Origin: Anadara kagoshimensis
Lineage: Eukaryota; Mollusca; Bivalvia; Arcoida; Arcidae
Length of the DNA: 64,000 nucleotides
Assembly: GCA_021292105.1 (NCBI GenBank)
Contig: CM037866.1
Span: 6,977,163 to 7,041,162 of the forward strand
Direction: 5' to 3'
Numbering within the stretch: position 1 is the first letter of the stretch; each line of letters opens with the position of its first letter. Made by a program: the position numbers and the translations under genes. A model generated the notes under the pieces. It saw only the letters and a program-made list of their open reading frames with translations, was not told where the DNA came from and did no database searches. Shown here in pieces: positions 1 to 39,030 of the stretch.

Positions 1-820
1 ATACAAAAAAAAAACCCTGAAAATATCCAACTAATTTTTCTTTTTTTGAAAGGCTGCACACATAAAAATCCAAAATGGGAAAAAATATTAAGCTAAATTA
101 TGCTTTGTAAATATCTCCTTGTATTTTTTCTCTCCCGTATAATAACTTTCCAAAGACGTCCAACAACGGTTCGGAATGAATAGCTCTTTTAATAACAACA
201 ATGCAATCCCCAGCAGCTGAATCTATAAACGTTGGGATAAAAATCTCCACGGAAACGAAAATTGCATTAATTCAAAATCCTCTAGAATGTTAAAAATAAT
301 CAACTTTTCTTTATTTTAAATCAACATTTACAGATTTAGATATTTATATATATTTTTTTCCATCACAGATAAATATTTTTTTCCTAGTTGACTAGTATCA
401 CACATGTACTACCACTACTATTGCTATATAAAATCCACACACAGCCTTGCTATACTATGCATTGTATGATATTGACTAAATGGTCTGCGAGTGTTAGACA
501 CACTGAGTGTAGTAATTCAATCCCTGTCAGCAATCAGTGGGAGGTGCCTTACAATGATTGACAGCTTGTCAGTTTCAATATTGTCTATTTTCCCTCCTTG
601 CTAAACAGTTGGTTTTTTCTCAATGGGAGGGTCTAAAGGGTAACATAACAAAGGGGTTCCACGAGGGGAATTCAATCACACAACAGAACAAAAGGTTAAT
701 AATGGGTTTATTTATGGAAAAGATCAAAGCCCCATTAATGGAGATATTCAAATTATCTTATCTGGTTATCTATACAAGGGAATTTTTAACAGGTAATGTG
801 TCCTTAAATACAATACAATG

Positions 821-880
821 TAAATAAATAAATAAATTTAAATAAATAAATAAATAACTAAATAAATAAATAAATAAAAT
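821..880. repeat. (AAAT)n microsatellite in copy A
   Basis: Tetranucleotide AAAT repeat with one interruption ('aacta'). The same array occurs in copy B at 27369-27431, longer and uninterrupted. It is preceded in both copies by a short (AATAC)n-like run. Confidence 0.9.
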
Positions 881-1350
881 GGTCTCAATGAACAATAAAT
901 TTTTTTCAAAAAAATTTTAATATTTTCAAATTTTTTATAAATTTCTGAACAAAGCAATTTTATTTTATTTTAATTTTATATATACATTTTTTCAAATTTT
1001 TGAAAAAAAAAAATATATGCTTCCTTTAGTTTTTTTTCCATATTTTTGAGTGAAAACAGATTTTTAGATTGTCAAATTAAAAGTGGGGAAAAAGAAAATA
1101 AATATATTTCTTTTAGGGGGAAACCGAAAATGAGAGACCGTTTAAAAGACGCTATCTGGGAAACTTAACTTAATGACAGAATACAAAACATATAGCAACA
1201 CTTAACATCTTATCTTGGGATATTATAAAAAACCAAAAAATATTTGAAGTGTTTTTAATTACATAAACATGAACTTATTTCATGATAAATGGTGTGGTTA
1301 AGAAGGTTTTGAGATTGCATAATATTGATATTGACATGGCTTTGCAAAAT
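881..1350. other. AT-rich spacer without recognisable features
   Basis: Very AT-rich sequence with poly-T and poly-A runs, shared with copy B (27432-27915). No open frame is conserved between the copies, and no RNA gene or mobile-element terminus was seen. Confidence 0.6.
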
Positions 1351-1353
1351 AGT

Positions 1354-1504
1354 TGTAATAATAATGATGACAATAATAATATTTGGTGTGATAATAATAA
1401 TAATAATAATAAAAATAATGACAATAATAATGTTGTTAGGTGCTGGTCAAGCTTTCGGCCTGGTATGGCCATGATAATGATAATAAATAATAATAAATAA
1501 TAAA
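1354..1504. repeat. (AAT)n trinucleotide arrays flanking a conserved block, copy A
   Basis: AAT/GAT trinucleotide runs surround a GC-richer block, 'ctggtcaagctttcggcctg', at about 1442-1461. The same arrangement is in copy B. Microsatellites on both sides of a conserved core suggest a dispersed repeat that carries the microsatellite with it. Open frames here (runs of Asn or Leu) are repeat artefacts. Confidence 0.7.
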
Positions 1505-2092
1505 AATGAAATAGCTATTCAAGTGCCACATGTAAATAATTTTAACATGCATAGTTTAAAATCAAACATCATGAAATCATAAAAATAATAATACAATAAT
1601 TTACATCTGGCCATAATTGACTTATGAGACACAAAAATCATTTTCACAAAAAAATGAAATCTGTTATAAATTGAAAAGGCCACAGTTACGGCAATATAAA
1701 TCTAATATGCATAAGGTAAAGGATTTAAAAAATATATTAGACAAGTGATGGAATTCATGAATATTCATGAGCTGAATGATTAAAAGAATTAATTATTATT
1801 TATGTTGTTAATTTAAAATCTGTGATAAGTGAAAGAAAAAACAATTCCTTATCTTAAATAAAGAGAATTTTATCTGGATAAAAACAATACTTTGACACTA
1901 TTAGTTCAAAGCAGTAACAAGGTGGCCTAATTTTGTGAAATTTATGGAAATTTTGACACTCTTTTCTTTAGTTTTTATCAGAATATTAAATTATGGACTG
2001 CTTTTTAAAGAATGAATTTAGAAATTATTAAGTGACAATCAGAGCCCTTAGTGCAATCAATCTTTGTGATGGGGTGGGGGTGGTGGTGGATT

Positions 2093-2371
2093 AGAGTTGA
2101 GTAGAGTTATGTAATGGTGTTAAATGTACCAGTCAAGAATATTTCACTAATATTGAGATGTCCCCAGTTATAGGCGAAGGTAAAGACACTGCCTGTGTGT
2201 TTCTTTATCATGCCAAGCCTTCCATGGGACCTGGTTTATTTTAAGTTCTCATCCAAAAAAACAGTAGTGACTTTCATTTCACAATGCCAAGTGCTTGGCG
2301 AAAGAACAATCACTAACCGCTTTAAAGCGTTGGGTCAGACCTGGATGGAGTTTAAACTGACGACCTCTAAC
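2093..2371 (-). mobile_element. Truncated tRNA-derived SINE (family A), copy A
   Basis: On the minus strand this carries the family A body: the block read on plus as 'ccagtcaagaatatttcac', the 'ttataggcgaagg' block, the 'ttattttaagttctcatcc' block and the 'gtgcttggcgaaagaacaat' block. Compared with copy B it has lost most of its tRNA-like head and an internal stretch around 2190, so it is a decaying insertion older than the duplication. Confidence 0.85.
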
Positions 2372-2379
2372 AAATCTGT

Positions 2380-3420: not shown

Positions 3421-3428
3421 TTTCCTGC

Positions 3429-6541: not shown

Positions 6542-6544
<3 letters not shown>

Positions 6545-9219: not shown

Positions 9220-9868
9220 CAGACCTGTCGAAAGTTTAACACTAAGCTGATAGATCGGTACCAAGTAGTAGTGATGGGACATCAGTTCAAAATCACAATC
9301 GATCATCGGTTGGAATCTGTTGGTGCTTCCGATGTGATTTTACCGATTATAATCGGTTACATGCTTTTCTAATTTTACTGCTTGTTTGTGAAGTGATTGT
9401 GTGTTTTTTGTGCTTAACAATTAATATTAGATATAATCTCACTAGCACATATATGTAAACTCACTAGTAGCACTGTACTTGCATATATTTGTATACTTTT
9501 GCTTTCTATATATGTACCCATTGTTCCGCCATGTTGTTAAAACGCAGATCCTGGCGAGGCTTTCTAAAGACCAGAATGGAAATGGTGAAGGACTGAACAC
9601 GGATTCCGGAAACATATGATGATCGATTATGAAAAAACACCATCGATAATCGGAATCGGAAGCTTCAACACGCCGCTAATCGAAACACCACTACCAAGTA
9701 GGCACCTCGTCTTGTTTCCCTTAAACTCTAAGTTTTGGGCAGCTATTATCTATCTCTCAGCAGGTTTTTGGCAACTTGGTACCCAAATTTCTACCACTTG
9801 ATAGCAGTGCTTGGCGATCAACTTTTTATCATTTGCTCACTAGGGCTTCAAACTAGTTTTATCTATCA
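9220..9868. mobile_element. Diverged TIR MITE (CAGACCTGTC family), split by a hAT-like element
   Basis: It starts with 'cagacctgtcgaaagtttaa' (9220), matching the termini of the intact MITEs at 11579 and 11818, and continues to about 9868 as a weak match to their interior. The hAT-like element at 9269-9693 is inserted inside it. The uninterrupted version in copy B runs from 36624 to about 36812. The 3' terminus is not recognisable. Confidence 0.6.
9269..9693. mobile_element. Non-autonomous hAT-like element, copy A only, 8-bp TSD
   Basis: A 425-bp insertion is flanked by 'ccaagtag' at 9261-9268 and 9694-9701, and copy B shows the empty site ('gtgccaagtaggcacc' near 36660). Ends read 'tagtgatggg' and, from the other end, 'tagtggtgtttcgat'. 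The 8-bp TSD and TAGTG-type termini fit hAT transposons. Subterminal parts are rich in 'cgattat'/'aatcgg' motifs in both orientations, which could be transposase-binding repeats (inference). No transposase frame is present, so mobility would need an enzyme supplied elsewhere. Confidence 0.88.
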
Positions 9869-10262: not shown

Positions 10263-10946
10263 TGACAAACCTCTACTTTTGAAATGTTCCACCCTTTACA
10301 ATAAAGTTGAGATTACCTATTATCAGATAGGTAAAATTGTCTTAAAGCAGCCTTCAAATAATATCAAAATCCATTCTTAAAAAGGTAATTAAAAATCTTC
10401 AATTGATTTTAAATAAAATGTGGAACAAAAGAGCACACCTGCGTCTAAAAATAGATCTGTTATATAATAATTAGGAACCAGGGTATTTGTACAGGTAGTA
10501 CCAAGGTCTCGTTATAATTATTTTGTAATTAGGAATACCTGAGCAGGTAGTTAATTATGTCATGGACTAACGAGGATAGGGGTGATAGAGTGTATATATG
10601 CTAATTACACAACCAACATGAACACTGACAGGCCACATGTAGATGTTAAACCCTGACAATCATCTGAACATTAATTAAAACTGCAATCGCAGATTTCATA
10701 AATACAGCACAACCCCATTATGATGCACCCAATATCATTGCCACCTCTCTGATAGGAGAAATTTCAGATTATTCTCTTCTAATATACTAAGCCGTTCACA
10801 TTAACTGAGTAAAGTGCCATTTTACCAATCATCTCTTGACCTATGTTCCAATCCTACATGGGCAGATCCTAGACAAGGAGGTTTTGTCAGTTTCGCTTTT
10901 TGTCAGTGGTTTTCTCCATCATCCCATCTGCATCTAAAATTTTAAA
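10263..10946. other. Duplicated non-coding sequence, partly identical between copies
   Basis: Includes 10272-10488, identical to 37222-37438 over 217 bases, then AT-rich sequence to 10946. No gene or RNA was recognised. The stretch around 10850-10945 matches copy B only loosely. Confidence 0.6.
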
Positions 10947-10950
10947 GAAC

Positions 10951-11070
10951 TGTCATGTGCTACTTTCGTCGAATTTTTATGAAATAATATAATTCAAAAG
11001 TAGCACATGATTGTCGTGTGCTACTTTTGAATTATATTATTTCATAAAAATTCAAAAGTAGCACATGACA
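10951..11070. mobile_element. 120-bp near-perfect foldback element, copy A only
   Basis: The whole insert is an inverted repeat with arms of about 55 bases that differ by a few bases near 10967, and a short centre ('tgattgtcg'). The motif 'catgtgctacttt' appears four times in alternating orientation, so each arm is itself bounded by inverted copies. Flanking 'gaac' occurs at 10947-10950 and 11071-11074. Copy B has the uninterrupted sequence ('ttttaaagaacagtaaaac' near 37913). It would form a long hairpin in RNA or single-stranded DNA. Confidence 0.9.
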
Positions 11071-12023: not shown

Positions 12024-12181
12024 TACGATATACTACAATCAATGGGGATAATGGATATCACATTTAATTAAACTTTTGATATAACCCCAGACACCTAAAA
12101 CCACACCACACAAAATTTCAACCAAAAACATCCTATGTATCTATAGATGAAATTTGTCAAAGCAGATCATAGGCCATAAAA

Positions 12182-12800
12182 CAAGAGGCCCAATAGGGCC
12201 TGTATTGCTCAACTGGCAGACAAGATGCCTGTCATATTGTGAAAATTTAGTCAACAAAACAATTACATATTACATGACTAGGCTTGTACATTTTCAATTT
12301 ATATCTCAAATTTGAACTAAATCGATTAATAAATAAACGTGTAATGACCATTTACAGGTTTTTGCTATTTATAGCAATGGAAACCATCTTGGATGTTGCA
12401 GGATGTTGATTTTTTCAAACTTTCATCTACTCTACCTAGGGACTTCCCAACCCAAATTTAGTTTCAACTGTCTTTGTAGTTTCCGAGAAGAAGATTTTTC
12501 ATATAATCGTTTAAATTTAGCATATTCTGCTAATTACAAGTAAATAGAAAAAGTTACTGAAAAACCCATTCCATACATTAAATGGCTAGACATCTACTTT
12601 CTAAATATCAAATTTGAACTGAATAGTTGATAAACGTGTAATGACCATTTATAGGGTTTGCAATAGTGGCCATCTTGTATGTCAGGTGGAGTCGCCTGGT
12701 TTATTCATCCTTGGGACCTTCCATTCCAAATTGGGTTCCAATTGGCAGAGTGGTTTCAGAGGAGGAGATTAAAGTTTACAGATGGACACACACTTCACCA
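12182..12800. repeat. Dispersed repeat, two diverged segments
   Basis: It starts with the palindromic 'aggcccaatagggcct', a form I remember from the starts of molluscan dispersed repeats. It then has two diverged segments, each with 'acgtgtaatgaccattta' (12342 and about 12634), 'ccatcttg' and a 'tttccgagaagaagat'/'tttcagaggaggagat' block. Large-duplication similarity ends exactly where this repeat begins. No open frame of note. Confidence 0.55.
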
Positions 12801-12835
12801 TGTTATACGCTTACAAGCTATAGTTAGTTGAGCTA

Positions 12836-13035
12836 ATTAAACAAAATTGATTTAGATTCCATGGATTTACACATGGTAATTAGGGGTTACATGCCCACCC
12901 ATGGTTTTGTGCAGTCATTTGTTGTGCTTTGAAGACTGAGTGGACACACATGCGTCATCTCATGTAACCCCTGATTACCATGTGTAAATTCATAGATTCT
13001 AAATCAAACTTTTAAAAATTTTGTTTAAATTATTA
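12836..13035. mobile_element. Foldback/TIR element of about 200 bp
   Basis: Inverted arms: 'atttacacatggtaattagg' with 'ggttacatg' on the left, and 'catgtaacccctgattacca' with 'tgtgtaaat' on the right. They extend outwards through 'gatttaga'/'tctaaatc' to 'aaacaaaatt'/'aattttgttt'. The centre is about 70 bases. No open frame. No clear target duplication was identified. Confidence 0.82.
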
Positions 13036-13926
13036 ATTATATATGCATTTAGCTACTAGCTAATTGACATTACACAAAGTCTATTTCATGTCTTATATGT
13101 AGCAAAATGTAAATACAAATTAAATACAAACATACCAGTCCAAGATCCATGTCACATTTCACAACTGCCAAGTTTCTAGTAATTGTAAAGGGTCTTGATA
13201 AATAAACTCAAGAGAACACCTCCTTCACATCAATTGAGATAGAACCTATACTGTTTATTGAATTTTTAGAATTATTTTGCAGTACCGGTATTATTCAAGA
13301 TTTATTATGAAGTATTATTTAAAAAAACTTTTCCAAAAAAAAAAAAAAAACAAAAGCTTTAAATATTGTCATGTTTTGCGTAAATATGACATTCAAATTA
13401 GATGGAAATGAAGGTGAATTTCAGGAAAGGGACAGTCAATAAACAGACAGATGACAAGTTTAGCAACATAATATGTAATGTTCGATAAAACATATAAAAA
13501 TAAAGAACTCGGAATCAACTAGAAAACTAACTTTATTGTGATACAAGATATGTATACAACATAAAAATAAAGGTACTTGAAACATTAACTGCAATATTTA
13601 TTGGCATTATGAAAAAATAAACAATTTTTTATGTGTATTTGAGAAAAATACACCTTTTAATACACCTTGTTAAGAAATTAAATGAGAAAATGAGCAAAAC
13701 TAACACTATAACATGTCAAATGAAGTATGGGCATAGTTAAACCTATTTAACATATTAAATGCCAAAATGGGCAAGTTTCAATGCCATCCATGAGGTCTTC
13801 CATACTTTCTTTCTTAACTCTTCACTGCCTTACTCTGAGCAGTGTTTGGGGTAAAACATTGTTTCTATAAGCAGTAGCTTTAAAATTTATCGCTGCTCTG
13901 GTTAGTTTTGTTTTACATTTAGAAAT
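13036..13926. other. AT-rich spacer without recognisable features
   Basis: Contains a poly-A run near 13337-13352 and scattered 'cattaaatg'/'atcaaatg' motifs that recur at 15600-17000. No gene, RNA or element terminus was recognised. Confidence 0.55.
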
Positions 13927-14977
13927 CAGGGCTCAAAATAGATTTTTGAACAGGGAGAAGTGACTTCTCCCTAAGCCAAGGTTAGGGAGAAGTTTTTAAT
14001 ATAGGGAGAAGTTTTTTGCATGCAAAATTTGGCATATTTAAAAAAAAATCAACTTTAAATTTCACAATCCTCTTACCGGAAGAGTGCAAAGAGAGTAATT
14101 ATAATTTTGAATTCCATATAAATATATTTCTTCATTATTTTTGTATTATTGTTATTGGTTTTTTTTTTTCTTTTTTTAATTATTGTTATTTGTTAATTAT
14201 ATACATGTATTGATATGATTTCAACAAAAATGTTGTTTGTAATTCAAAGACTCTTTTCCTAAATGGTCAATTAAAGCAAGAAACATATTTATTTAACAGC
14301 AATTTGGATACCGGTATAATTCAACTACAATGTAAAATTGAAAATATATATATATATATTAAAATTAAAAGGTGAAAATCTTTTGAAAAAAATATTAATT
14401 AAAAAAAATTTAAAAAATTTAAAATTGCACTAGGCCATTCTTTTGAAATAGAGTTATTCCCCTTGTGTAAACAGATGGTTCCTATAAATAGCCATTGGGA
14501 TTTTTGTTTGTCCTACTCCAATGTCTAGAGATGATTTGGCTGATTTAACATCATTCAGCTGTAAACTACTTTAATTTATGAAGAGAAACATTTTGAAATG
14601 GTCCGTTATTTTATTAAAGTTTCTTATCAAAAAACAATGTGTATTGTATGTTTACAACAAGGACTTCTGGTTTTCATCTTAATACATAAACATTGACAGA
14701 GCTGTTTTTGTAGCAGTTAATTAGGCCTTTTTCATCATGATGACCTTTAATTACTTCAATCAACAGGTTGATGAATTTATAATTATCGGATTAACACACC
14801 TGGGTATATTGGGAGGTACCTGAACCTACATATTAATGTGTGTCATGTCAGAGCCCCTCTAGGGTTAAGTAAAATTATCAAAACTTAGGCTACTAGAACT
14901 TCGCTTTTTAGGCAGTTTCAGCAAAGTTTTTGAACAGGACGAAGATATCGCCCAACTTCGCCCTATTTTGAGCCCTG
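13927..14977. mobile_element. Non-autonomous hAT-like element with CAGGGCTCAAAATAG ends
   Basis: Terminal inverted repeats 'cagggctcaaaatag' (13927-13941) and 'ctattttgagccctg' (14963-14977) enclose about 1.05 kb of AT-rich sequence. The subterminal 'gaacagggagaag' and, inverted, 'cttcgtcctgttc' extend the symmetry. CAGGG-type ends suit hAT. The flanking octamers do not match convincingly, so the superfamily is tentative. No transposase frame is visible. Confidence 0.65.
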
Positions 14978-19665: not shown

Positions 19666-19669
19666 ATCA

Positions 19670-21800: not shown

Positions 21801-21957
21801 TTTGTAGATGGTTGAGGAAACCGTAGTGCCATCAGCAAGATAACCGACAAACTAAAAATTAAAATCATCCCTGAATGGGATTTGAACCCAGGAAGTGAGA
21901 GGTGATGTGATTTGTAGCTGTGTGCTTTAGTCACTTGGCCACTAAGACCACTCTGGA
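21801..21957 (-). mobile_element. SINE family B head and body terminating the 74-bp satellite
   Basis: Body block 'gatggttgaggaaaccgtag' followed by a tRNA-like head complement ('gggatttgaacccaggaagt', 'gtcacttggccactaagacc'). The satellite is thus one SINE whose 3' segment has been multiplied while the head stayed single. Confidence 0.8.
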
Positions 21958-21997
21958 TAAAGAAAGATCAAAGAAATCAAGTCAATTTGTATAGGAA

Positions 21998-22385
21998 AGT
22001 GGTACATATAGTAGAGGGGAAAATCCTTTATTTCAGCTTGTCTGAAACCCACGGCAATGAGGTACTTCATGATTACCTCCCCCCCCCTCTCCTTCCTCTT
22101 TTTTTATTATCAAACTGATTTTACATGTTTCAATGTGTAAACATGAACTTATGTTATAAATCCAGTGTTTTTCTTATAGAATTTCAAGGAAAGTGGAATG
22201 TATAGTAAAATGGATAATCTTTCAATTCAGCTTGGCACATCATGCTAACTATTTTGGGGATTTATTTTTAATTTTTAATTTTTATTTTTTCCTCCAACTG
22301 ATTTTACATACCTTTCAATGTGTAAGGTGAAGAAATAACATGCAATTATGTTGTAAAACCTATGTTTTACTTACAAGAGTTACAA
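21998..22385. repeat. Two diverged tandem units of about 190 bp
   Basis: Both share 'gaaagtgg.a.atatagta', 'ggataatctttcaattcagc' (or a close form), 'caactgattttacat' and 'caatgtgtaa'. A C-run follows 'gattacct' at 22079. Not coding. Confidence 0.7.
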
Positions 22386-24430: not shown

Positions 24431-24433
24431 GAA

Positions 24434-24458
24434 ACTCTCTCTCTCTCTCTCTCTCTCT
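24434..24458. repeat. (CT)n microsatellite
   Basis: About 12 CT units. Confidence 0.9.
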
Positions 24459-24600
24459 ATCATAAAGGAATATCAAAATGAAAGTTATTTGAAATCTTAA
24501 TTTGACAAAGCTATTTTTCTTGCAGAATGAATAAATGAATGAACCAACCAACTAACTAACAAAAGAATGAACAAATGGAGGAATGAACAAACAAACACAT

Positions 24601-24640
24601 GAATGAATGAATGAATGAATGAATGAATGAATGAATGAAT
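24601..24640. repeat. (GAAT)n microsatellite
   Basis: Ten GAAT units, preceded by degenerate related tetramers from about 24525. Confidence 0.92.
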
Positions 24641-24925
24641 CTTCAAATCCCAAATCCTGAAGCTTTTCAGTGATATATTTTCACAAAGCCATTTTCATGC
24701 AGAATGAATGAGGCTACACATGGATATTTTGACAAAGTGGATAGATAGGGAAAACAGCTTGAATGATGGCAAAACAAAAATTAAAAAGTTTTAAAATCCC
24801 CAGGAGGAAAACCATAACAATAACCCAATAATGTAATAAAAGTGCAAAAGGGCCATAAATAACCAGTAAAGCTAGCTAGCCAGCGTAAATACCCCCACAA
24901 CAGAGAGAGGGGAATTAATCAATAC

Positions 24926-25553
24926 ACAGTATGTATGTGTGTGTATCATAGCTCAGCTGGAGAGCAGTGATAGAAATGAAAACTGTTTTCTTAGGTTTAT
25001 AAGCTCATTTTTCATTTATGTGTGTTGCGTTTTTTTCAGAGAGAGAGAGAGAGAAAGAAAGAGAGAGAGAGAGACTATAGTATGTGTGTGTATCATAGCT
25101 CAGCTGGAGAGCAGTAATAGAAACGAAACTGTTTTCTTAGGTTTATAAGCTCATTTTTCATTTATGTGTGTTGGGGTTTTCTCAGAGAGAGAGTGAGAGA
25201 ACTATTAGTATGTATGTGTGTGTGTGTGTTAGCGTGTATGTAATGTGTTGTAGGATAGCTCAGCAGGATAGCAGTAACAATAAATGGTTTATAAGCGCAT
25301 TTTTCATTTATCTGAGAGTTTCTCAGAGAGAGAAAGAGAGAGTGTGTGTGTGTATGTGAGTTTTAGTGTGTGATACACAGGGGCTATAGTATGTATGTGT
25401 GTATCATAGCTCAGTAACAGAAATGAAGGTGTTTTTAGGTTTATAAGAACTCATTTTCATTTATGTGCGAGTGAGTTTCTAGAGAGAAAAAAGTATACCC
25501 TGGTATACAATGACAAGTATGTATTTATATCATTTTTTGTAGATGAGCATTTC

Positions 25554-25606
<53 letters not shown>

Positions 25607-25615
25607 TCAGTGTTT
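24926..25615. repeat. GA-rich tandem repeat with TAGCTCAGCTGG blocks
   Basis: About four units carry 'tagtatgtgtgtgtatcat', 'agctcagctggagagcag', 'ggtttataagctcatttttc' and a terminal (GA)n run, at about 24927, 25077, 25205 and 25387. The final (GA)n runs are at 25555-25602. The 'tagctcagctggagagc' block resembles a tRNA A box, but no B box follows in place. Confidence 0.82.
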
Positions 25616-25719
25616 ATTTTATTAAAGAGGTACTTATTCATACCTGTAGTATTTTAACAATGAGATAAGGTGATTCTTTAATATTGATATTGTTGCCACA
25701 ATAAATCTCAAAATCTCTT

Positions 25720-25992
25720 TTTCTTTTTCATTCTCCCTCTCTGTCTCTCTCTCTATGATCCAGACTGGTAGCTTGCATATTGCATATTGTTGCATTCATT
25801 AGGTACACACTATAGGGACGAGGAACACATTTAATTTTGCTTTTAATGACAAATTTATCAATATTAACCATTTTCTGTAAATCTGTACCATTAATTCTCT
25901 CTCTCTCAATCTCTATTAGACTTAGAATATAAGACAAATTAACTCTTTGATTTCTCTTGCTCTCTCTCTCTCTCTTTCTCTCTCCCTATTAG
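25720..25992. repeat. (CT)n-rich block with repeated spacers
   Basis: Several CT runs (25735, 25892, 25960) are separated by 'tattagactta' spacers (25913, 25987). Opposite strand bias to the GA array just upstream, so the two could pair as an inverted GA/CT structure. Confidence 0.75.
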
Positions 25993-26531
25993 ACTTATCC
26001 TAAGACACACTATTTTTCATAAACTGCTTGCTGTCTTTCTCTCATTTCTCCATCTTATCCAATCTTATTTTGTTAATTTCTTCATAATTGAGTTGCAATA
26101 CATCATATACCGTATGTAAGCAATATCGTTATCTTTGCTTCAGGAATCCTGAATTCCATTAGTTTTCAACAAAGGCATGGGTCGTACGCTCCAATAATAA
26201 TACATAGGTATCTATGCATGTGCATGCATGTGTATGTGTGTGCATGTGTGTGTGGTCATTCTTACCTCAATCTCGTGTGTAAATAAAATATATCCTTTCC
26301 AGTTAGCTTAAACAATCTAACTAATTACGTAAATTTTTTGTATCCTCGGAATAAATATATAAATCCAACGGTATCAGAGATATGTTTATAAACAAAAAAA
26401 TGTGAAAATATATAAAAAATTCTCCTCTAGAAGTTAACACACACTGAATTTATCAGAATTATCAACATTGATAGATACAATCCATTACGCTAGAGTGTTA
26501 CGATAAACTCGAAAACACAAAAAACATCAAG
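25993..26531. other. Unique sequence before copy B
   Basis: Includes a short TG-rich run (26217-26253). No genes recognised. This may match sequence upstream of the window start if copy A extends leftwards. Confidence 0.5.
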
Positions 26532-27368
26532 ATACAAAAAAAACCCTGAAAACATCCAACTAATTTTTCTTTTTTTGAAAGGCTGCACACATAAAAATCC
26601 AAAATGGGAAAAAATATCAAGCAAAATTATGCTTTGTAAATATCTCCTTGTATTTTTCTCTCCCGTATAATTTTCCAAAGACGTCCAACAACGGTTCGGA
26701 ATGAATAGCTCTTTTAATAACAACAATGCAATCCCCAGCAGCTGAATCTATAAACGTTGGGATAAAAATCTCCACGGAAACGAAAATTGCATTAATTCAA
26801 AATCCTCTAGAATGTTATAAATATCAACTTTTCTTTAATTTTATTAACATTTACAGATTTAGATATTTATAAATATTTTTTTCATCACAGATAAATAATT
26901 TTTTCCTTAGTTGACTTTTTCCCATATAAATGTATCACACATTGTACTACCACTATTGCTATATAACATCCACACACAGCCTTGCTATACTATACATTGT
27001 ATGATATTGACTAAATGGTCTGCGAGTGTTAGACACACTGAGTGTAGTAATTCAATCCCTGTCAGCAATCAGTGGGAGGTTCCTTACAATGATTGACAGC
27101 TTGTCAGTTTCAATATTGTCTATTTCCCTCCTTGCTAAACAGTTGGTTTTTTCTCAATGGGAGGATCTAAAGGGTAACATAACAAAGGGGTTCCACAAGG
27201 GGAATTCAATCACACAAGAGAACAAAAGGTTAATATAATGGGTTTATTTACGGAAAAGATCAAAGCCCCATTAATGGAAATATTCAAATTATCTTATCTG
27301 GTTATCTATACAAGGGAATTTTTAACAGGTAATGTGTCCTTAAATACAATACAATACAATACAATGTC

Positions 27369-27370
27369 AA

Positions 27371-27429
<59 letters not shown>

Positions 27430-27431
27430 AA
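27369..27431. repeat. (AAAT)n microsatellite in copy B
   Basis: About 15 uninterrupted AAAT units, longer than the copy A allele at 821-880. Confidence 0.92.
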
Positions 27432-27917
27432 TTGTCTCAATGAACAATAAATTATTTTCAATAATATTTTAATATTTTCAAAATTTTTATAAATTTCTGA
27501 ACAAAGCAATTTTATTTTATTTTAATTTTATATATACATTTTTTCAAATTTTTGAAAAAAGAAAAATATATGCTTCCTTAGTTTTTTTTTCCATATTTTT
27601 GAGTGAAAACAGATTTTAGATTGTCAAATTAAAAGTGGAGAAAAAGAAAATAAATATATTTCATTTAGGGGAAACCGAAAACGAGAGACCGTTTAAAAGA
27701 CGCTATCTGGGGAACTTAACTTAATGACAGAACACAAATATATAGCAACACTTAAAATCTTATCTTGGGATATTATAAAAAACCAAAATAGCAAAATACG
27801 GAAATATTTGAAGTGTTTTTAATTACATAAACATGAACTTATTTCATGATAAATGGAGTAGTTAATAAGGTTTTGGGATTGCATAATACTGATATTGTCA
27901 AGGCTTTGCAAAATAGT

Positions 27918-28072
27918 TGTAATAATAATGATGACAATAATACTTTTTTGTGTGGCCATAATAATGATGATGATAATAATAATAATACAAAAAAATAATG
28001 ACAATAATAATTTTGTTAGGGGCTGGTCAAGCTTTCGGCCTGGTGTGGCCATAATAATAATAATAATAATGA
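27918..28072. repeat. (AAT)n trinucleotide arrays flanking a conserved block, copy B
   Basis: Counterpart of 1354-1504, with the same 'caagctttcggcctggt' core between AAT/GAT runs. Repeat lengths differ from copy A, as expected for microsatellites. Confidence 0.7.
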
Positions 28073-28651
28073 AAAAGTTATTTAAGTGCCACATGTAAAT
28101 AATTTAAATCATTTTTTTTAAATCAAACATCATGCAATCATAAAAAATAATACTGCAATCATTTACATCTGGTCATAATTGACTTATGAGACACAACAAG
28201 TATTTTCACAAAAAATAAAATCTGTTACAAATTAGAAGGCCACAGTTACGGCAATATAAATCTAATATGCATAAGGTAAAGGATTAAAAATATATTTGAC
28301 AAGTGATGGAATTCATGAATATTCATGAGCTGGATGATTAAAAGAATTAATTATTATTTATGTTGTTAATTTAAAATCTGTGATAAGTGAAAGAAAAAAC
28401 AATTCCTTATCCTAAATAAAGAGAATTTTATCTGGATAAAAACAATACTTTGACACTATTAGTTCAAAGCAGTAACAAGGTGGCCTAATTTTGTGAAACT
28501 TAAGGAAATTTTGACACTCTTTTCTTTAGTTTTTATCAGAATATTAAACCATGGACTGCTTTTTAAAGAATGAATTTAGAAATTATTGAGTGACAATCAG
28601 AGCCCTTAGTGCAATCAATCTTTGTGGTGGGGGTGGGGGTGGTGGTGGATT

Positions 28652-28982
28652 GGAGTTGAGTAGAGTTATGTAATGGTGTTAAACGTCCCAGTCAAGAATA
28701 TTTCACTAATATTGAGATGTTGCCAGTTATAGGCAAAGGTATAGACACTGCCTGTGTGTTGCTCTGCATTATACGGCAGGGTTTTTTTTTATCATGCCAA
28801 GCCTTCCATGGGACCTGGTTTATTTTAAGTTCTCATCCAAAAGAACAGTAGTGACTTTCATTTCGCAATGCAAAGTGCTTGGCGAAAGAACAATCACTAA
28901 CCACTTTAAAGCGTTGGGTCAGACCCAGTTGGGGTTCAAATCGACGATCTCCAACTTATGGAGCGAGCACTCTACCAACTGA
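28652..28982 (-). mobile_element. tRNA-derived SINE (family A), copy B, with head
   Basis: Same insertion as 2093-2371 but more complete. It keeps the tRNA-like head, visible on plus as 'ggggttcaaatcgacg' (B-box complement) and 'gagcgagcactctaccaact' (A-box complement). This shows what copy A has lost. It cannot act as a tRNA. Confidence 0.87.
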
Positions 28983-29974
28983 AAATGATCAAATCTGTTA
29001 CTGATGTATATATGTCAACCAACCAAGGCTAGATAATCATTAACATGTAATGAACAGCACTGATGTCACATCTAAGAACAGATGTAGTCAGAGAGGGGGG
29101 GAACAATCAGACAGGGTTGGCTTTGAAGGGGACAGTCAGGAGGGGGGCTTTATGCTAATTAAACACATTCATAACCATCTGAAAGAAATCCTGAATTTAT
29201 CAGGAAACATTCCATTCATTGTTAATTAACAATTCATTGAATCAATGGACTAAATTATTTCTGAGAAGGGAGGGGGGAGGAAAGTCGGGAGAGGGCTTTT
29301 ATGCTAATTAATTACATTCATAATTTTAAATCACAGACCTTAACCAAACTCTAACAAGTAATGTCCCATTCAGTTTTAATTAAGAATTCGTGAATATTAA
29401 TTAGCGCGTCAAACTCAGATTTTTAACACTTACATGACTCTAACAAGTAAAAGTCCCTTTCAGTTATAATTAGAAATTCATGAATATTAATTAGCGAGTC
29501 AAACTTGAACATTTAACACTTACGTAATTTCCCCTTTATTCTTTTATTTTTGTTTGATGCCCCCTACTAACTGGATGAAAGGGAATTTATATTATTTTAT
29601 CAATAGAATGAAATTAATTTCCACTGGAAATAAAGTCTCGTTAGTTGTAGAAATGACAATTAATGCAAAAATGTATAACCAATCTTCAGTAACAATCAGA
29701 ATTGTATTGCCTATCAAATTAATTAATTTTGCACACATTTCATTTTCTTGTAATTAATTTTTTTCTAACTCTCAGCTTAAATGGATTATTTTATAAAATT
29801 CCAGGCTCAAATTCCAGTCTGGTAGATGGATCTTAGAGTGAATAAGTTTGTCAGTTCACTTGTTGAAGGTCGCCATTGGGGGGTGGGGATGTGGGGTGGA
29901 TTGGGAAGCAGGCATTCCACTTATGGTTGTCAATATACCAATATATGTTTGAATAGTAATGGTTTGTCGGGGTT

Positions 29975-31030
29975 GCTTAGTTGATGGAACACTCACTTAT
30001 ATTCAGGGAGGTCCAAGGATCAAGCTCCTGTTCAACCCTGAATTTTTCCTCAATACTCTTAGTTTTCCTGCTTAATTCTTGGTCAGATCAGGCCAGAGTC
30101 CAAACCCTTAAATCAAATACTATGCAAGCACACTACCAACTGAGATACCATAGTGATCTTTATCAGGAAGTACAAAAATGCAGAGTTAAACTGAGGATCG
30201 AACCTGGGTCCTCCACCACTATAGGTGAGCTACCCAGACCACTACATTCCTCCCAAATGTTTTTGATTTTCTGATGGTCTCATATGGGAAATCCCACCCA
30301 AATTCCCTCAGATGGACTTTATATGGCCTGCAACTGCCAGTTCACCACTTCTTTTGGCCACACTTGCCACAAAACTGTTACAGGAAGAAGAAAAATAATG
30401 CAGTGTTGGACTGGGGATCGAACACAGGACCTTTAACAATATAGGCAAGTGCTCCATTAATTGAGCTACCCAGACCACTACATTACTGTCGGACCAACAG
30501 AATGCAGAACTAGTGCACTTTAGTATAATCTTAAATGATCTTTAACTTCATTACAACACCTGTGTATTGGAATGGGGATTGAACCAAAGCAAAAAAGGTA
30601 AGCACTCTACCAACTAAGCCCTAACTAAGCTACCCAAACCACTACATTCCTGTCAAGGAACACACGGATGGAGAACCAGAGAACTAGTACACTTCTAACA
30701 TAATCTGAACCTCATCCACGTGTTGGACTAGGATATTGAACCTGAGACTTCCAAGCACTAAAGGTAAGCGCTCTACCACTAAGCGCTGAGCAGGCTATCC
30801 AAACTACTTCATTACCATTGACAAATACAGGGATGGAGTACCAGAAAACTAGTACACTTCCAACTTAATCCTATCTGATCCTTTAACATCACCTGTGTGT
30901 TGGACTGGGAATTGAACCTGGCACTAAGGTAAGCACTCTACCAACTGAGCCCTAACTATGCAATGCAAACCACTACATTACCGTCGGGGAATACACGGAT
31001 GGGGTACCGGAGAACTAGTACACTTCTAAC
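29975..31030 (-). repeat. Tandem array of tRNA-like units, copy B
   Basis: Counterpart of the copy A array, with tRNA-like cores at about 30190-30245, 30410-30480, 30570-30640, 30725-30810 and 30900-30980. Unit number and order differ from copy A: the recent homogeneous units at 4200-4510 are not matched one to one. This fits local unit gain and loss since the copies separated. Confidence 0.72.
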
Positions 31031-31501
31031 ATAATCTTATCTGATCTTTTAACTTCATTATAATTATAACACCTGCGTATTTGTTAATGGATTAACATGG
31101 ATTATCTGGGATAATACGAAGATCTTAACTAACAATGTTATCTCACCTGAGTGTGGATATACATGTATCTTATCAGGTATATCATTTACCTGTATCTACC
31201 TGTGTATTATTACATTTGATCTCATCCGACTTACCTGTGTTTAGTTGTTAAGTCATGGTTCCTATTTTTCCAGGTAGATATTTTAAAACCAGTAAAATAA
31301 AGAAATCCGTCTTTTACTTGGTTTTTTTTTTCTTTCTGAGAAATTCTGAAAAATGTAAGAAAAAATATAAAAATAAGATTTTAAAAATACTAAAATATAT
31401 ATTTTTTATTATGGTATCATTGTTATAATGTTTTGTTCCTTCTTCTTCAAACACACCTCAAGACTTGCTAAGTCGTCACATTAAATTTCTTTTTTTTTAA
31501 T

Positions 31502-31584
31502 TAAATATTTTATTTTATTTTATTTTATTTTATTTTATTTTATTTTATTTTATTTTATTTTATTTTATTTTATTTTATTTTATT
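31502..31584. repeat. (TTTTA)n pentanucleotide microsatellite
   Basis: About 16 near-perfect TTTTA units. The orthologous or paralogous place in copy A is imperfect and longer. Confidence 0.92.
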
Positions 31585-31754
31585 TCTATTATCTATTTCT
31601 TTCATTTTAATATAAAATATCTCTCTTACATAATCATTACATAATATACACAAATATTTTGTCACCACACATACATACACATATACAAAATCAAGAATCG
31701 AGTCATAGTTGACAATTAACAGTGTTGCAATTTTTTACTCCTTCCCCCAAAAAT

Positions 31755-31866
31755 CCAGTTTCACAATCAAAATGAAACCTAATTAAATGCATTTAGATTA
31801 ATTAATTAAAAGTAGCAAATTTACCAGATTTAATTTAAGAGAAATCTTAGTTTGTGAAAACTGGGA
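31755..31866. mobile_element. Foldback MITE with AGTTTCACAATC termini (copy B)
   Basis: Single copy with left end 'ccagtttcacaatc' and right end 'gtgaaaactggga', matching the copy A pair. The local duplication seen in copy A is absent, so it happened, or was lost, after the copies separated. Confidence 0.7.
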
Positions 31867-32104
31867 CTGGTCTAAGCCGAGTATAAACTATGCACATACA
31901 CTGAAACAAAGCAAGAATCAAGATATAGAGCTGACAATTAACAAATGTTGCCAATTTTTTCTACTCCTGATCTCAGCTGGAGAGACAATTCATTTGATCT
32001 TAATAAATCCTTTGTTTCTGTCTCTTCAGTCTAATTAATGCTAATTAAGAAACCTCCTGTATATTGTAATACATACATATATATATATATATCAATGTAG
32101 AGTG

Positions 32105-32955
32105 TCAATAACCGGCACACAGATGTCATCAAAATCAACACAATTTGTACAGATGATAAGGGAGAAAGTAGGTGTCCTTGACCTACCCCCCTCTCTCTTC
32201 TGATATACAAGATATATATATAAAATTGGTAAAAGAGTTGAGTAGTTGAGTTGAGTAATGGTTTTTCACGTCCCAGTCAAAAATATTTCACTTATATCGA
32301 GATGTCGCCAGCTATATGCAAAGGGGCAGAAATTTGGTAAAAATTGGTAAAAGAGGTGCCAAAATCAGCACAGATTGTATAGATGATAATATAAGGGAGA
32401 AAGTGGGTGTCCTACCCCTCTATTGTAGAATGATAGAGTTTAATTTTTACATGCGGCTTGATGGCCACTTTTGTGCAAACTTTTAATTTTAATGTATTAA
32501 CTTTGTCTTGATGTGTAAAGGAGAAAGAAGGCTGAAGATACATGGGTACAAAAGGTGTCAAAATCAGCACAATTTGTTTAGATGATAAGGAAGAAAGTGG
32601 ATGTCCTTGACCTACCTCCTCTCTCAATATACAGGATATTGCCAATGATAAGGAAGAGTAATGATGTCCCTGACAAAATTTCTTTTTTAATATACAAGCT
32701 GTATATAGTGCCAAAATCAGCAATTTGTATAGATTATGATTAGGGAGAAAGTGGATAACCTTGACCTTCCCCCTCTCTCAATATACAGGAAACTGTCAAT
32801 GACAAGGAAGAGAGAAGACAACTACCCTTTTCTTAATAATGTACAGAATGTATACAAAAGGTGCCAAAATCAGCATTATGTCAAAATCTGCACAATTTAT
32901 TTAGAAAGTGGATGTCCTTGACCTACAACCTCTCTCTCTGAATATACAGGAAATA
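32105..32955. repeat. Degenerate tandem repeat with CCTTGACCTAC block, copy B
   Basis: Counterpart of 5960-6860 with the same unit order, near 32120, 32355, 32555, 32715 and 32860. The (TA)n run present in copy A between units is absent here. Confidence 0.75.
32235..32335 (-). mobile_element. SINE family A 3' fragment, copy B
   Basis: Same fragment as 6075-6169, with a slightly longer GTTGA-repeat tail. It predates the duplication. Confidence 0.85.
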
Positions 32956-33122
32956 TGGGCTTGATGACAGGAAATTGTTGTAACTACTGATGGTGATACT
33001 ATTCTTCGTTTTAAGTGATTTGGTTATTTAATACTTCCTGATATTCCTCTCATAACAACAGTATGTAATAAAAAAGTTGGCAGCGATTACACAATCATCA
33101 TTTAATAATTTACTGAAGATAG

Positions 33123-33415
33123 TTAAAGTTAAAGTCTGTCCCGAGCCATTAGGCCCATCAGACCGGAGCTTATCCCGGTTTCGGTGGCGTTAAGCGACTG
33201 AGAGTACAAGACTCTCCCCTGAATGGGACGCCGGTCAATCGCAGGGTTAACCCCCAGCATTTTGCTGGTACTCATTTATTTTTCAGCTGAGTGAACTGGA
33301 ACAACATGAAATTAAGTGTCTTGCTCAAGGACACAACACATCGCCTGGTCTAGGGATCGAACCCACGACCTTCGAATCATGAGTCCAACGCCTTAACCAC
33401 TAGGCCACGTGCTTC
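33123..33415 (-). mobile_element. Full-length tRNA-derived SINE (family C), copy B only, 12-bp TSD
   Basis: A 293-bp insertion is flanked by perfect 12-bp duplications 'tactgaagatag' at 33111-33122 and 33416-33427. Copy A has only one such sequence, giving a clean empty site. On the minus strand it has a tRNA-like head with A box ('tggcctagtggttaagg') and B box ('gggttcgatccc'). A long conserved body follows ('cccagcattttgctgg', 'gctcaaggacac'), then a CTTTAA-type repeat tail. Pol III transcription and LINE-driven retrotransposition are known for such SINEs and inferred here. A headless relative is at 46871-47058. Confidence 0.93.
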
Positions 33416-33815
33416 TACTGAAGATAGAGAACAAAAACAAAAATTCAAGCGCAAAAATGACAGGCCCTAGTAGGACAGCTCTGGCAAATTTGTATCAGGC
33501 AAAACTCCATTAGACAGACGTACAGACAAACTCACATATACATATATATATATTTTATTTACCTTATAATCACTACTGACAAGAATTTAATTGCACTAGC
33601 ATCCAGAATAACTCAACATTAACTCCGAAAATTTTAACAATGTTAACCTTGCACCAAATACACTCTCTGAACATATATATATATATGTATATGAAATATG
33701 CAGCTCAGAAATAAATCAGGTCCCTTATCTTACCCAATAAAATATCTCCAACTTTCAACATAAATGATAAAATCTGAACATAAAGATAAACCACAAAGAC
33801 GAGAAATCATAATGC

Positions 33816-35794
33816 TGTCAATTATATATATTGTATAAGTGTGTGTGTCTGTGTGACGGTCTGTATATGTAAAATATCTATCTGAGACTGTATTTTAATG
33901 GGCACCTTAGAATAGAGGACACAGCCCTGCTATTCAAAGGGCACCTGTAATCTAAATCAGAGACACAGGGCCCTTCAGAAAACAAGTGTAGCTCACCTGT
34001 CAATTATATATTATATGGAAAATATCTGGTACTGTATTTTAACGGACACCTTAGAATAGAGGACACTAACTTGCTATTTAAAGGGCACCTGTAATCTTAA
34101 TCAAAGAGACACAGGGCTCTTCAGAAAACAAGTGTAGCTCAACTGTCAATAATATATTGTACAAGTGTGTGTGTGCTGGTCGGTATATGTAAAATATCTA
34201 TCTGGAAGTGTATTTTAATGGACACCTTAGAAAAGAGGACACAGACCTATTTAGAGGGAATTCAAAAGACTGTCATATCTATTTGATAATCCGGGCCCTT
34301 CAGAAACCAGTGTAGCTCATCTGTCAATAATATATTGTACAAGTGTGTGTGTGCTGGTCGGTATATGTAAAATATCTTTCTAGATGGACACCTTAGAATA
34401 AAGGACACGACCCTGCTATTCAAAGGGCACCTGTAATCTAAACAGGGCCCTTCAGAAAACAAGTGTAGCTCACCTGTCAATTATTTAATTGTACAAGTAT
34501 GTGTATATGTAAAATATCTTGAAATGTATTTAAATGGACACCTTGGAATAGAGGACACAGCCCTGCTATTCAAAGGGCACCTGTTATCTAAACAGGTCCC
34601 TTCAGAAAACAAGTGTAGCTCACCTGTCAATAATACATATTGTACAGGTATGTGTATATGGAAAATATCTGGTACTGTATTTTAACGGACACCTTAGAAT
34701 AGAGGACACAGCCCTGCTATTCAAAGGGCACCTGTAATCTAAATCAGAGACACAGGGCCCTTCAGAAAACAAGTGTAGCTCATCTGTCAATCATATTTTG
34801 TACAAGTGTGTATGTGTGTGCAGGTTGGTATATGTAAAATACCTATCTGGTCCTGTATGTTTAATGGACACCTTAGAAAAGAGGACACAGACCTGCTATT
34901 CTACAATCAAAGGACTGTCATATCTTTCAGATAAACAGGGTCCTTCAGAAACCAGTGTAGCTCATCTGTCAATAATATATTGTACAAGTGTGTGTGTGCT
35001 GGTTGGTATATGTAAAATATCTTTCTAGATGGACACCTTAGAATAAAGGACACGACCCTGCTTTTCAAAGAGCACCTGTAATCTAAACAGGGCCCTTCAG
35101 AAAACAAGTGTAGCTCACCTGTCAATTATACATATTGTACAGGTATGTGTATATGTAAAATATCTGGGAATGTATTTTAATGGACACCTTAGAATAGAGG
35201 ACATAGACCTGCTATTTAAAGGGCACCTGTAATCTAAACAGGGCCCTTCAGAAAACAAGTGTAGCTCACCTGTCAATTATTTAATTGTACAAGTATGTGT
35301 ATATGTAAACTATCTTGAAATGTATTTAAATGGACACCTTGGAATAGAGGACACAGCCCTGCTATTCAAAGGGCACCTGTTATCTAAACAGGTCCCTTCA
35401 GAAAACAAGTGTAGCTCACCTGTCAATTATACATATTGTACAGGTATGTGTATATGTTAAATATCTGGTCCTGTATGTTTAATGGACACCTTGGAATAGA
35501 GGACACAGCCCTGCTATTCAAAGGGCACCTGTAATCTTATTCAAAGAGACACAGGGGCCTTCAGAATCAGTATAGCACATCTGTCAATTATATATTGTCC
35601 TGTAATCTTATTCAAAGAGACACAGGGGCCTTCAGAATCAGTATAGCGCATCTGTCAATTATATATTGTAAAAGTATGTACACCTTAGAAGTACACAGAC
35701 CTGCTATCTAAAAGGCAGCTGTAATATAAAATCAAAGGAGTGACATAATTATTAGGTAAATAGGGCCTGTCAGAAAGCGGTGTAGCTCACCTGT
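33816..35794. repeat. 150-bp VNTR, expanded allele (about 12 units), copy B
   Basis: Same unit as 7937-8412. The 'tagctca(c/t)ctgtcaat' block recurs at about 33990, 34136, 34315, 34467, 34617, 34779, 34961, 35110, 35266 and 35416. Diverged forms lie at about 35570, 35645 and 35782. Some neighbouring units share the same variants, suggesting multi-unit duplication. Open frames over the array are repeat artefacts. Confidence 0.9.
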
Positions 35795-35839
35795 GTATAC
35801 ACTCTCTTTGAAACTTTTAATCAGAAATATTGGATTGCC

Positions 35840-36033
35840 AGTAGAGTGAAGCAGAGTGGGTGCTGAAGTAAAGATTCTGTTACTTAGATCTAGACAGGCA
35901 GTTTAAAATGGAGGAAACTGGAGTGCCCCAAAAAAATCACAGACCTTCTCACATGGGATCTGCCAACTGAAGCTGTTAAAAGCACTGTCATCAGAAAGCA
36001 CTCATTTTAGATACTAGGCCACTGTGATCCCTC
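35840..36033 (-). mobile_element. SINE family B (GGAGGAAAC body), copy B
   Basis: Counterpart of 8490-8704 with extra small deletions. The block 'atggaggaaactggagtgcc' is intact and the B-box region is deleted. Confidence 0.8.
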
Positions 36034-36427
36034 ATCTATATAGAGAAATGAGATATTTCTAAGGGAGTGTTTTAAATGAACAAATACACATGTTAGTTCT
36101 TTATTCATTGAGAAACAATCAAAAAGAATATCAAACAGCAGAATAGAAAGTCATGAACATGTTTAAATCACCGAAAATCTATTTGTCCTTCCGTCTCTAA
36201 AAAACGTTTTATATACGTAATTACCGATTTTAATAACTTAAAAAAATATGTCGCATGTTAGTTTTAATTTTCAATTGTTACAAAATGTATATATTTTCAT
36301 TATAAAACCGCAGACGGAATAACGAACAGGGGTTTCTTTTGTAATGTTACAGGAATTACGAAAGACGAAAAACTAATTTTGAAATAAAATTAATGACGGA
36401 AAAAACTCGGGTAAATGTTTGCGACTG

Positions 36428-36479
<52 letters not shown>
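36428..36479. repeat. (AT)n microsatellite, copy B
   Basis: About 25 AT units. The copy A allele is far shorter ('tatatatatatg' near 9080). Confidence 0.92.
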
Positions 36480-36481
<2 letters not shown>

Positions 36482-36623
36482 TTATTACTTCTGATTGTAA
36501 TTAACAGATTATTAGTTTGAAAAATCAGTCAATTCTAATTGGGGGCCGTACCAAAATTAAAATTTCACATTTCAATTTTAGAATAACCGATTCATTAAAG
36601 TTGGGTAGTACAGTAAAGTACAG

Positions 36624-36812
36624 ACCTGTCAAAAGTTTAACACTGAGCTGATGGATCGGTGCCAAGTAGGCACCTCATCTTGTTTCTCTTAAACTCTAAG
36701 TTTTGGCCAGCTTTTATCTATCTCTCAGCAGGTTTTTGGCCACGAAGTACCCAAATTTCTACCACTTGATAGCAGTGCTTGGCGATCAACTCTTTTTCAT
36801 TAGCTCACTAGG
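36624..36812. mobile_element. Diverged TIR MITE (CAGACCTGTC family), copy B
   Basis: Left end 'cagacctgtcaaaagtttaa'. The interior aligns loosely with the MITEs at 38424 and 38664. It lacks the hAT-like insertion, so it represents the pre-insertion state of 9220-9868. Confidence 0.6.
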
Positions 36813-36848
36813 GCATAAAACTCCAGTTTTCTCTATCACTTTGATATA

Positions 36849-37027
36849 CAGTCCAACCTGCCTTAAAGGCCATTTCTATATAAGGGCCACCTGCTTCTAA
36901 AGGCCAGTAAAACTGTATCTCAATTGTTCTTTATTCATATTACTTGAACCTGTATATAAGGGTCACCTGCCCATAAAGGCCACTTTTACTGGTTCCCTTG
37001 GATGGCCTTTATTGACAGGTTTGACTG
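36849..37027. mobile_element. TA-flanked MITE (CAGTCcAACCTGcCT family), copy B
   Basis: Counterpart of 9893-10071, with the same termini and TA boundaries. The insertion predates the duplication. Confidence 0.85.
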
Positions 37028-37108
37028 TAAAAGGTTAAATAATCTTGACTAGGACACGTAAAACACCTTCCCAAATAATCAAACCTAAAAATTCGAATAT
37101 ATATTTTA

Positions 37109-37208
37109 GAGTGGAGAAATGGTGTTTTATGCCCTAGTCAAGATTCTTCCACTTATACCAAAGTGGAGGAAACCAGAGTGCCCAACGAAAACTTCCCACC
37201 TTTGGAAA
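37109..37208 (-). mobile_element. SINE family B fragment, copy B
   Basis: Counterpart of 10153-10262, with the same 'gtggaggaaaccagagtgcc' block. Confidence 0.75.
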
Positions 37209-38104
37209 TCAGTGACAAATGTCTACTTTTGAAATGTTCCACCCTTTACAATAAAGTTGAGATTACCTATTATCAGATAGGTAAAATTGTCTTAAAGCAG
37301 CCTTCAAATAATATCAAAATCCATTCTTAAAAAGGTAATTAAAAATCTTCAATTGATTTTAAATAAAATGTGGAACAAAAGAGCACACCTGCGTCTAAAA
37401 ATAGATCTGTTATATAATAATTAGGAACCAGGGTATTTCTACAGGTAGTACCATGGTTCGTTAAGGCTTGAAGGTCTCGTTATAATTATTTTCTAATTAG
37501 GAATACCTGAGCAGGTAGTTAATTATGTCATGGACTAACGAGGATAGGGGTGATAGAGTGTATATATGCTAATTACGCAACCAACATGAACACTGACAGG
37601 TCACATGTAGATGTTAAACCCTGACAATCATCTGAACATTAATTAAAACTTCAATCGCAGATTTCATAAATATAGCAAAACCTCATTGTGATGAACCTAA
37701 TATTGCCACCTCTCTGATAGGAGAAATTTCAGCTCATTCTCTCCAAGTATACTAAGCAGTTCACATTAATTGTGTAAAGTGCCATTTTACCGATCAACTC
37801 TTGACCTACGTTCCAATCCTATTTGGACAGATCCTAGGCAAAAAGGTTTGTCAGTTTCGCTTTTTGTCAGTGGCTTTCTCCGCCATCCCAGAATGGACCT
37901 GCATCTCCAATTTTAAAGAACAGTAAAACACATTTATAATGAAGCCCTAAAGATTCTATTTTTAACTTAGTTATAAAACGGCTTCGTTATATATGTAGAT
38001 TTATATAGAGATATGGTCGGGGACAATATTTGACTTTGTACTATCCATGTATTCAGTTTAAAGCATGTTCGTTATATTCATGTTTTACTGTATGATGCAT
38101 GACA

Positions 38105-38372
38105 TGGCCAGGGTTCGTAACCACAACAAACCCACATGATCTGCCATGCTATACCTTTGAGCTCCTGAGGCAGTTTTATGGGGGACTTCAGTATAAAAAT
38201 ATACTGCATAATATTCAGTAACAGTTTGAACTTTTGGAGACAGACTATAGTTCGTACCCACAACCTCCCACTTTATACGTTTGAGCTCCTGAGGCAGTTT
38301 TATGGGGGAGTTCAGTATATAAAATTATACTGCATAATATCCAGTAACAGTTTGAACTTTTGGCGACAGACA
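38105..38372. repeat. Two-unit tandem repeat (about 137 bp), copy B
   Basis: Counterpart of 11263-11540, with the same two units and 'tgaggcagttttatggggga' in each. Confidence 0.85.
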
Positions 38373-38423
38373 AACTGAAAACTTGCCAGATTCAAAGGTT
38401 AGATGTAATAAATATACACAGCA

Positions 38424-38627
38424 CAGACCTGTCAAAAGTTTAACACTGACCCAACGAAAAGGAGTAACATCTCGGCTGTCAAGTGGCCATGATATCGACA
38501 GCTAGTGACCAAGAGATGAGCAGCAGCTGCAGAAGAAAGTTTCAGAGTTATAGCTCATGGGAGATGAGAAGAGCAACGGATTCGGTACTGAATCATTAGC
38601 TTCAGTGTTAAACTTTAGACAGGCCTG
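38424..38627. mobile_element. TIR MITE (CAGACCTGTC family), first of pair, copy B
   Basis: Counterpart of 11579-11781, with both termini preserved. Confidence 0.87.
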
Positions 38628-38663
38628 TACGATATATACTACAATGTATATTGTAAATTACAT

Positions 38664-38869
38664 CAGGCCTGTCAAAAGTTTAACACTGAGCTAACGAAAA
38701 CCAGGCGAATCTCGGCTGTCAAGTGACTGAGATATTGACAACTAGTGACAGAGAGATAAACAGCTGATGCAGAAAAAAGCTGTCGAGACATAGCTAATAA
38801 GGAGCCCCGAGATGAGGAAGTCGTTCCGTGCAAAATCGACAGCTTAGTGCTAAACTTTGGACAGGTCTG
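38664..38869. mobile_element. TIR MITE (CAGACCTGTC family), second of pair, copy B
   Basis: Counterpart of 11818-12023. The left end reads 'caggcctgtcaaaagtttaa' and the right end has a small duplication ('ctgttctgta'). Confidence 0.85.
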
Positions 38870-39030
38870 TTCTGTACATATACTACAATCAATGTGAATA
38901 ATGGATATCACATTTAATTAAACTTTTGATATAACCCCAGACACCTAAAACCACACCACACAAAATTTCACCCAAATCATCCTATATATCTATAGGTGGA
39001 ATTTGTCAATGAAGATCATAGGCTATAAAA

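Follow-up and report, generated by a model that had tools for sequence, protein, structure and literature searches.

Paired 19-kb copies around a scaffold gap are probably two uncollapsed haplotypes, one of which carries a Helentron-like insertion

Organization of the locus

The window, a stretch of 64,000 nucleotides (C10:6977163-7041162) from a 1.115-Gb assembly in 36 contigs, was analyzed together with 100 kb on each side and a further 40 kb downstream, giving an examined region of 304 kb. Positions refer to the window, and negative numbers lie upstream of it. Three contigs meet at this locus, namely, c0, which ends at -2500; c1, which spans 1-17127 and is just 17.1 kb long; and c2, which starts at 18128 and of which ~186 kb was examined. 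Two related copies are found across them: copy A is made up of the end of c0 together with c1, and copy B is the start of c2 (Table 1).

Table 1. Coordinates of the features in the window
Feature	Position	Strand	Remarks
Copy A, right part (contig c1)	1..12184	+	Starts at the first base after the 2500-N gap
435-bp insertion, copy A only	9259..9693		8-bp flanking repeat CCAAGTAG, with a single occurrence in copy B
124-bp fold-back insertion, copy A only	10946..11069		Flanked by AGAAC
Helentron-like element	12180..17127	-	3' end at 12180; truncated at 17127, where the contig stops; copy A only
Scaffold gap between c1 and c2	17128..18127		1000 N
Copy B, left part	18136..23928	+	Pairs with the c0 end, -7224 to -2500, upstream of the window
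Copy B stretch opposite the 2500-N gap of copy A	23929..26529	+	2601 bp
Copy B, right part	26530..39033	+	Partner of 1-12184
~150-bp repeat array, expanded in copy B	33843..35611	+	Many units, also delimited as 33815-35598; copy A holds about two, 7937-8294
Empty-site equivalent in copy B	39033..39034		A-run (T-run on the minus strand); element absent

The two copies are direct and collinear, never occur on one contig, and have the scaffold gap between them. Alignment of 7-12184 with 26536-39033 by BLAST and MAFFT gave 89.9% identity over 10,625 paired columns with 122 gaps, a similarity far above chance (E = 0 for several BLAST blocks of more than 1 kb). A sequence-only reading of the window had described 1-12181 and 26532-39030 as colinear around the 1000-N gap, and this holds with the limits shifted slightly to 1-12184 and 26530-39033. 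Alignment with the upstream neighbor, a check proposed in that reading, showed that the homology extends past the window, so that its true extent is greater than that visible within it: the end of c0 (-7224 to -2500) matches 18136-23928 at 95.1% identity over 4,685 paired columns, and the 2500-N gap of copy A faces 2601 bp in copy B. The whole pair measures 19.4 kb in copy A and 20.9 kb in copy B. When window 1000-3000 was searched against the genome, the two long matches among the best 40 of 6,067 candidates were A and B themselves.

The limits of the homology lie close to the contig ends. It begins 8 bases into c2 (at 18136, the contig starting at 18128), runs to the last base of c0 (-2500), and begins at most 6 bases from the first base of c1. 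At the right end of c1, it is an element insertion, and not homology to copy B, that reaches the contig end. Within the aligned parts, the copies differ by substitutions, by the length of a repeat array, and by insertions present in one of them, much as the sequence-only reading had reported (substitutions, microsatellite length, and presence or absence of transposable elements). The insertion at 9259-9693 is one that we take to be hAT-like.

Divergence between the copies

In clean alignment columns, divergence between A and B was 4.2% (4,265 columns) and 5.1% (7,772 columns). The differences are unevenly spread, with a variance-to-mean ratio of 2.6-2.7 and identical runs of up to 320 bp. Sequencing error was considered as their source and rejected, given that gaps of 1-2 bp are balanced between c1 and c2 (29 missing in A and 31 in B). 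Since the corresponding counts for c0 and c2 are 6 versus 12, it is possible that error in the first kilobases of c2 contributed a small share of the differences. For comparison, heterozygosity is given as ~3% in a pearl oyster, with 3.57% before inbreeding in another strain, in the available text of PMC9646362, and that of PMC7653742 gives 1.73% for a mussel in which hemizygous regions are widespread. Against these genome-wide bivalve values, a divergence of 4-5% is high, the A/B figure being that of a single locus.

Gene structure could not be used as a test of the relationship between the copies because neither a Pfam scan nor a substitution count provided coding evidence. The scan covered 10 of the 49 listed open reading frames (ORFs) of at least 80 amino acids and returned no family at E values up to 1, and no exon emerged convincingly from the count of synonymous and non-synonymous differences between A and B, in which a stretch of 48 codons at -3200 had five synonymous and three non-synonymous ones.

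An interspersed element at the right limit of the homology

Within the window and the 304 kb examined, 12185-17127 gave only internal-repeat and low-complexity matches. A genome search with 13050-17127, in contrast, recovered at least 20 other full-length copies at 98% identity and at least 9 shorter ones at 98-100% (among the best 40 of 1,159 candidates), and a search with 11900-13100 found the same places, at least 29 in number, at 99-100% identity (among the best 40 of 1,901 candidates), with relatives at 74-81% following below them. The left edge in those 29 copies is narrowly placed, 19 starting at window 12178-12180 and 10 at 12171-12178 (again among the best 40 of 1,901). Because at least 29 other copies share this left edge at 99-100% identity, the tail of c1 is evidently an interspersed element with a sharp left border. 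A and B cease to be homologous at ~12180 because the element is present in A and not in B, and judging from these alignments the right limit is evidently a transposon insertion edge and not a duplication boundary. The sequence-only reading had noted that 12182-17127 does not match 39031 onward; this observation stands, while its use as an argument against a haplotig does not, as copy A carries a multi-copy element there and the contig ends inside it.

All nine shorter copies terminate at N runs, in two cases one base ahead of the run, and contigs elsewhere repeatedly end inside the element, as c1 does. A reading of the shorter copies as 5'-truncated LINEs was rejected because all nine stop at assembly gaps. 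The length of the element was estimated from copies on other contigs. The 6 kb to the right of the C13 copy is common to at least 20 copies, including C13 itself, at an identity that rounds to 100%. Of ten samples of 120 bases compared between the C13 and C9 copies, the nine lying 12.9-22.9 kb from the left edge agree fully once a small shift is allowed for, and the tenth, at 24.9 kb, does not; the element is therefore about 23-25 kb long. At least about 30 near-identical copies are distributed over 13 contigs of the assembly, although polishing with reads that fit every copy may have exaggerated how closely they agree, and doubled alleles may be included among them. When the end of c1 was compared with the C13 copy, 37 deletion events, 5 insertions, and 20 substitutions were counted over 2,055 paired columns. 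The last 2 kb of c1 thus look unpolished, and sequencing error is likely there.

Repeats were also seen within the element. Its 3' end contains two diverged units (12242-12362 and 12549-12659) that are 73% identical and ~307 bp apart, and relatives of the element elsewhere show matches to this 3' part in closely spaced series. In the C13 copy, ~22.9 kb from the left edge (L070), inspection by eye showed a sequence similar to window 12317-12436 and oriented alike. Located near the other end of the element, this resemblance could possibly represent (i) a terminal or subterminal direct repeat or (ii) a nested relative.

Relationship of the element to Helentrons

Helentrons are characterized in the available text of PMC4067079 by a Rep/helicase with an endonuclease, an RPA ORF, a 3' palindrome, and a preference for TT. 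The element resembles this description in several respects. A single ORF (L053:387-2000:-) contains an endonuclease match (PF14529; 28.6 bits against a cut-off of 27.4; residues 425-526), which is preceded by a helicase C-terminal match at residues 231-269 that falls below threshold, an order of helicase-like match and endonuclease domain comparable to that of the Helentrons in PMC4067079. Of the helicase signals, UvrD_C_2 (E = 1.4e-4) and PF05970 (PIF1) in a 40-amino-acid sample of the element (weak, E = 0.0015) are both below cut-off. A palindrome with a 6-bp stem and a 4-nt loop lies 6 nt from the edge, adjoining the 3' end of the element (z = -2.14; 7 of 200 shuffles fold as well), and the empty site is an A-run, that is, a T-run on the element strand, both of which are shared features with the published description (PMC4067079) as far as its available text goes.

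Other observations bear on the Rep domain, the RPA-like ORF, and the target site. A 39-amino-acid sample of the element reads PHVHILVW, for which Pfam returned REP_ORF2-G2P alone (E = 0.12). We presume this motif to be HUH-like. One ORF of the element gave Rep_fac-A_C at E = 0.0046, below cut-off and second to DUF3440 (E = 0.0028), and the other ORF scanned for an RPA-like domain gave no match. All 10 printed junctions, of which one side only was seen, read AACAAGAGG (TT on the element strand). In contrast to the Helentrons in the available text of PMC4067079, the element here is about 23-25 kb long, with ~30 near-identical copies.

Taken as a whole, the sequence fits a Helentron as described in that text. 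The more cautious name "Helentron-like" reflects the tentative standing of the Rep and RPA assignments, of the TT target, and of the 5' structure. The family, a young one, is of a known kind, and these long, near-identical copies most likely constitute a new member of it.

Flanks of other gap-terminated copies

As a control, two of the nine flanks of gap-terminated element copies were compared with the genome (C1:1727290-1728889 and C1:2871094-2872693; L044 and L043). Among the candidates scored, each flank had a single further long copy, located on its own chromosome and strand, one at 91% identity over 1,097 bp and 438 kb away and the other at 96% over 1,500 bp and 694 kb away. The former ends ~400 bp short of the element. 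Such doubling of flanks is what would be expected of unmerged haplotypes and suggests a parallel to the present locus, albeit a looser one in which the distances are larger than here and paralogy is an alternative too. It also points to large uncollapsed or misplaced haplotype blocks on the C1 chromosome.

Uncollapsed haplotypes or segmental duplication

The sequence-only reading had left the choice between haplotigs and a duplication undecided. The evidence now leans clearly toward the former, and A and B are very probably haplotypes that were left uncollapsed, one allele carrying a Helentron-like insertion. We infer their allelic status, and the order of the assembly events, from features seen directly in the assembly: collinear homology up to contig ends, the edge of the element and the number of its copies, the lack of an insertion in B, and other copies that likewise stop at gaps. 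According to this explanation, A and B would be the maternal and paternal alleles of a single locus in a highly variable animal genome, each retained in a pseudo-haploid chromosome scaffold, with haplotype A represented by c0, the 2500-N gap, and the 17.1-kb c1 and haplotype B by the start of c2. A long Helentron-like rolling-circle element would have inserted at ~12180 on haplotype A. The assembler may then have failed to read through it because about 30 near-identical long copies exist, leaving c1 to end inside the element, and the contig of haplotype B would have been placed behind c1 across the 1000-N gap. No sequence that would continue haplotype A past the element turned up in the 304 kb examined.

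An arrangement of this sort resembles a described assembly artefact. When divergent haplotypes end up one after the other on a single scaffold, mostly with a gap between them, the result is known as a false duplication (PMC9516828, PMC8081667), and a gap between the copies is among the marks listed for it in the available text of PMC9516828. The heterotype class in both sources is matched here by diverged collinear copies that lie on one scaffold, are separated by a gap, and reach contig ends; specifically, there is a gap at 17128-18127, and homology reaches the left end of c2, the right end of c0, and the left end of c1. The present case differs from the class, as those texts describe it, in that c1 ends in a large insertion absent from B, and the overlap falls short of the end of c1.

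The main alternative is a genuine segmental duplication in tandem, at least 19 kb long, with its junction inside the 1000-N gap and the Helentron-like element inserted later into the left copy. The limits of homology are equally compatible with this, being assembly ends or an insertion edge, and for the same reason they no longer provide evidence of a duplication boundary. A divergence of 4-5%, high for alleles, would also suit it. Nonetheless, we consider such an event unlikely, as it requires its single junction to fall in the gap, no junction at which one unit passes into the next is visible in the 304 kb examined, and same-chromosome doubling was found at both of the other places compared. 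Its outer boundaries would have to fall left of -7224 and right of 39033, beyond the comparable sequence. In its simplest head-to-tail form, duplication was rejected as the direct reading, as 12185-17127 does not match c0 upstream. A real duplication on one chromosome only, i.e., a heterozygous structural variant, could draw on the large presence/absence differences between homologues that are documented in a mussel (available text of PMC7653742), yet it faces the same objections, needs an extra event, and is very improbable. The apparent duplication is most likely an artefact of assembly.

The haplotype reading matters in more than one way. Left unrecognized, the artefact would pass for a segmental duplication; read correctly, it offers both alleles together with an insertion that one has and the other lacks. 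A general way in which such artefacts may arise is suggested as well, in which a long, near-identical transposon in one haplotype ends a contig and the other haplotype is appended. The element, a candidate young, full-length animal Helentron, is a more interesting by-product than the apparent duplication. To our knowledge, the mobility of animal Helentrons has been poorly tested as a class. It is conceivable, at a little short of an even chance, that the ~30 near-identical copies of about 23-25 kb on 13 contigs belong to a very young and possibly still active autonomous Helentron family, one insertion of which would here be caught in the heterozygous state, with the occupied and the empty allele in one scaffold.

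Other repeats in the window

Several further repeats were observed. A ~320-bp interspersed repeat occurs at 28670-28982, 47293-47623, 59163-59485, and 60534-60870 and is abundant in the region, where most copies share 77-92% identity. Within a part of copy B with no counterpart in A, Rfam gave a single tRNA match on the minus strand (33347-33408; 30.7 bits against a threshold of 29), whereas ARAGORN found no tRNA. A copy B repeat at 33121-33311, absent from A, recurs at 46870-47061 with 97% identity. Directly to the right of copy B, at 39942-40279, a 169-bp unit is tandemly duplicated with 98% identity.
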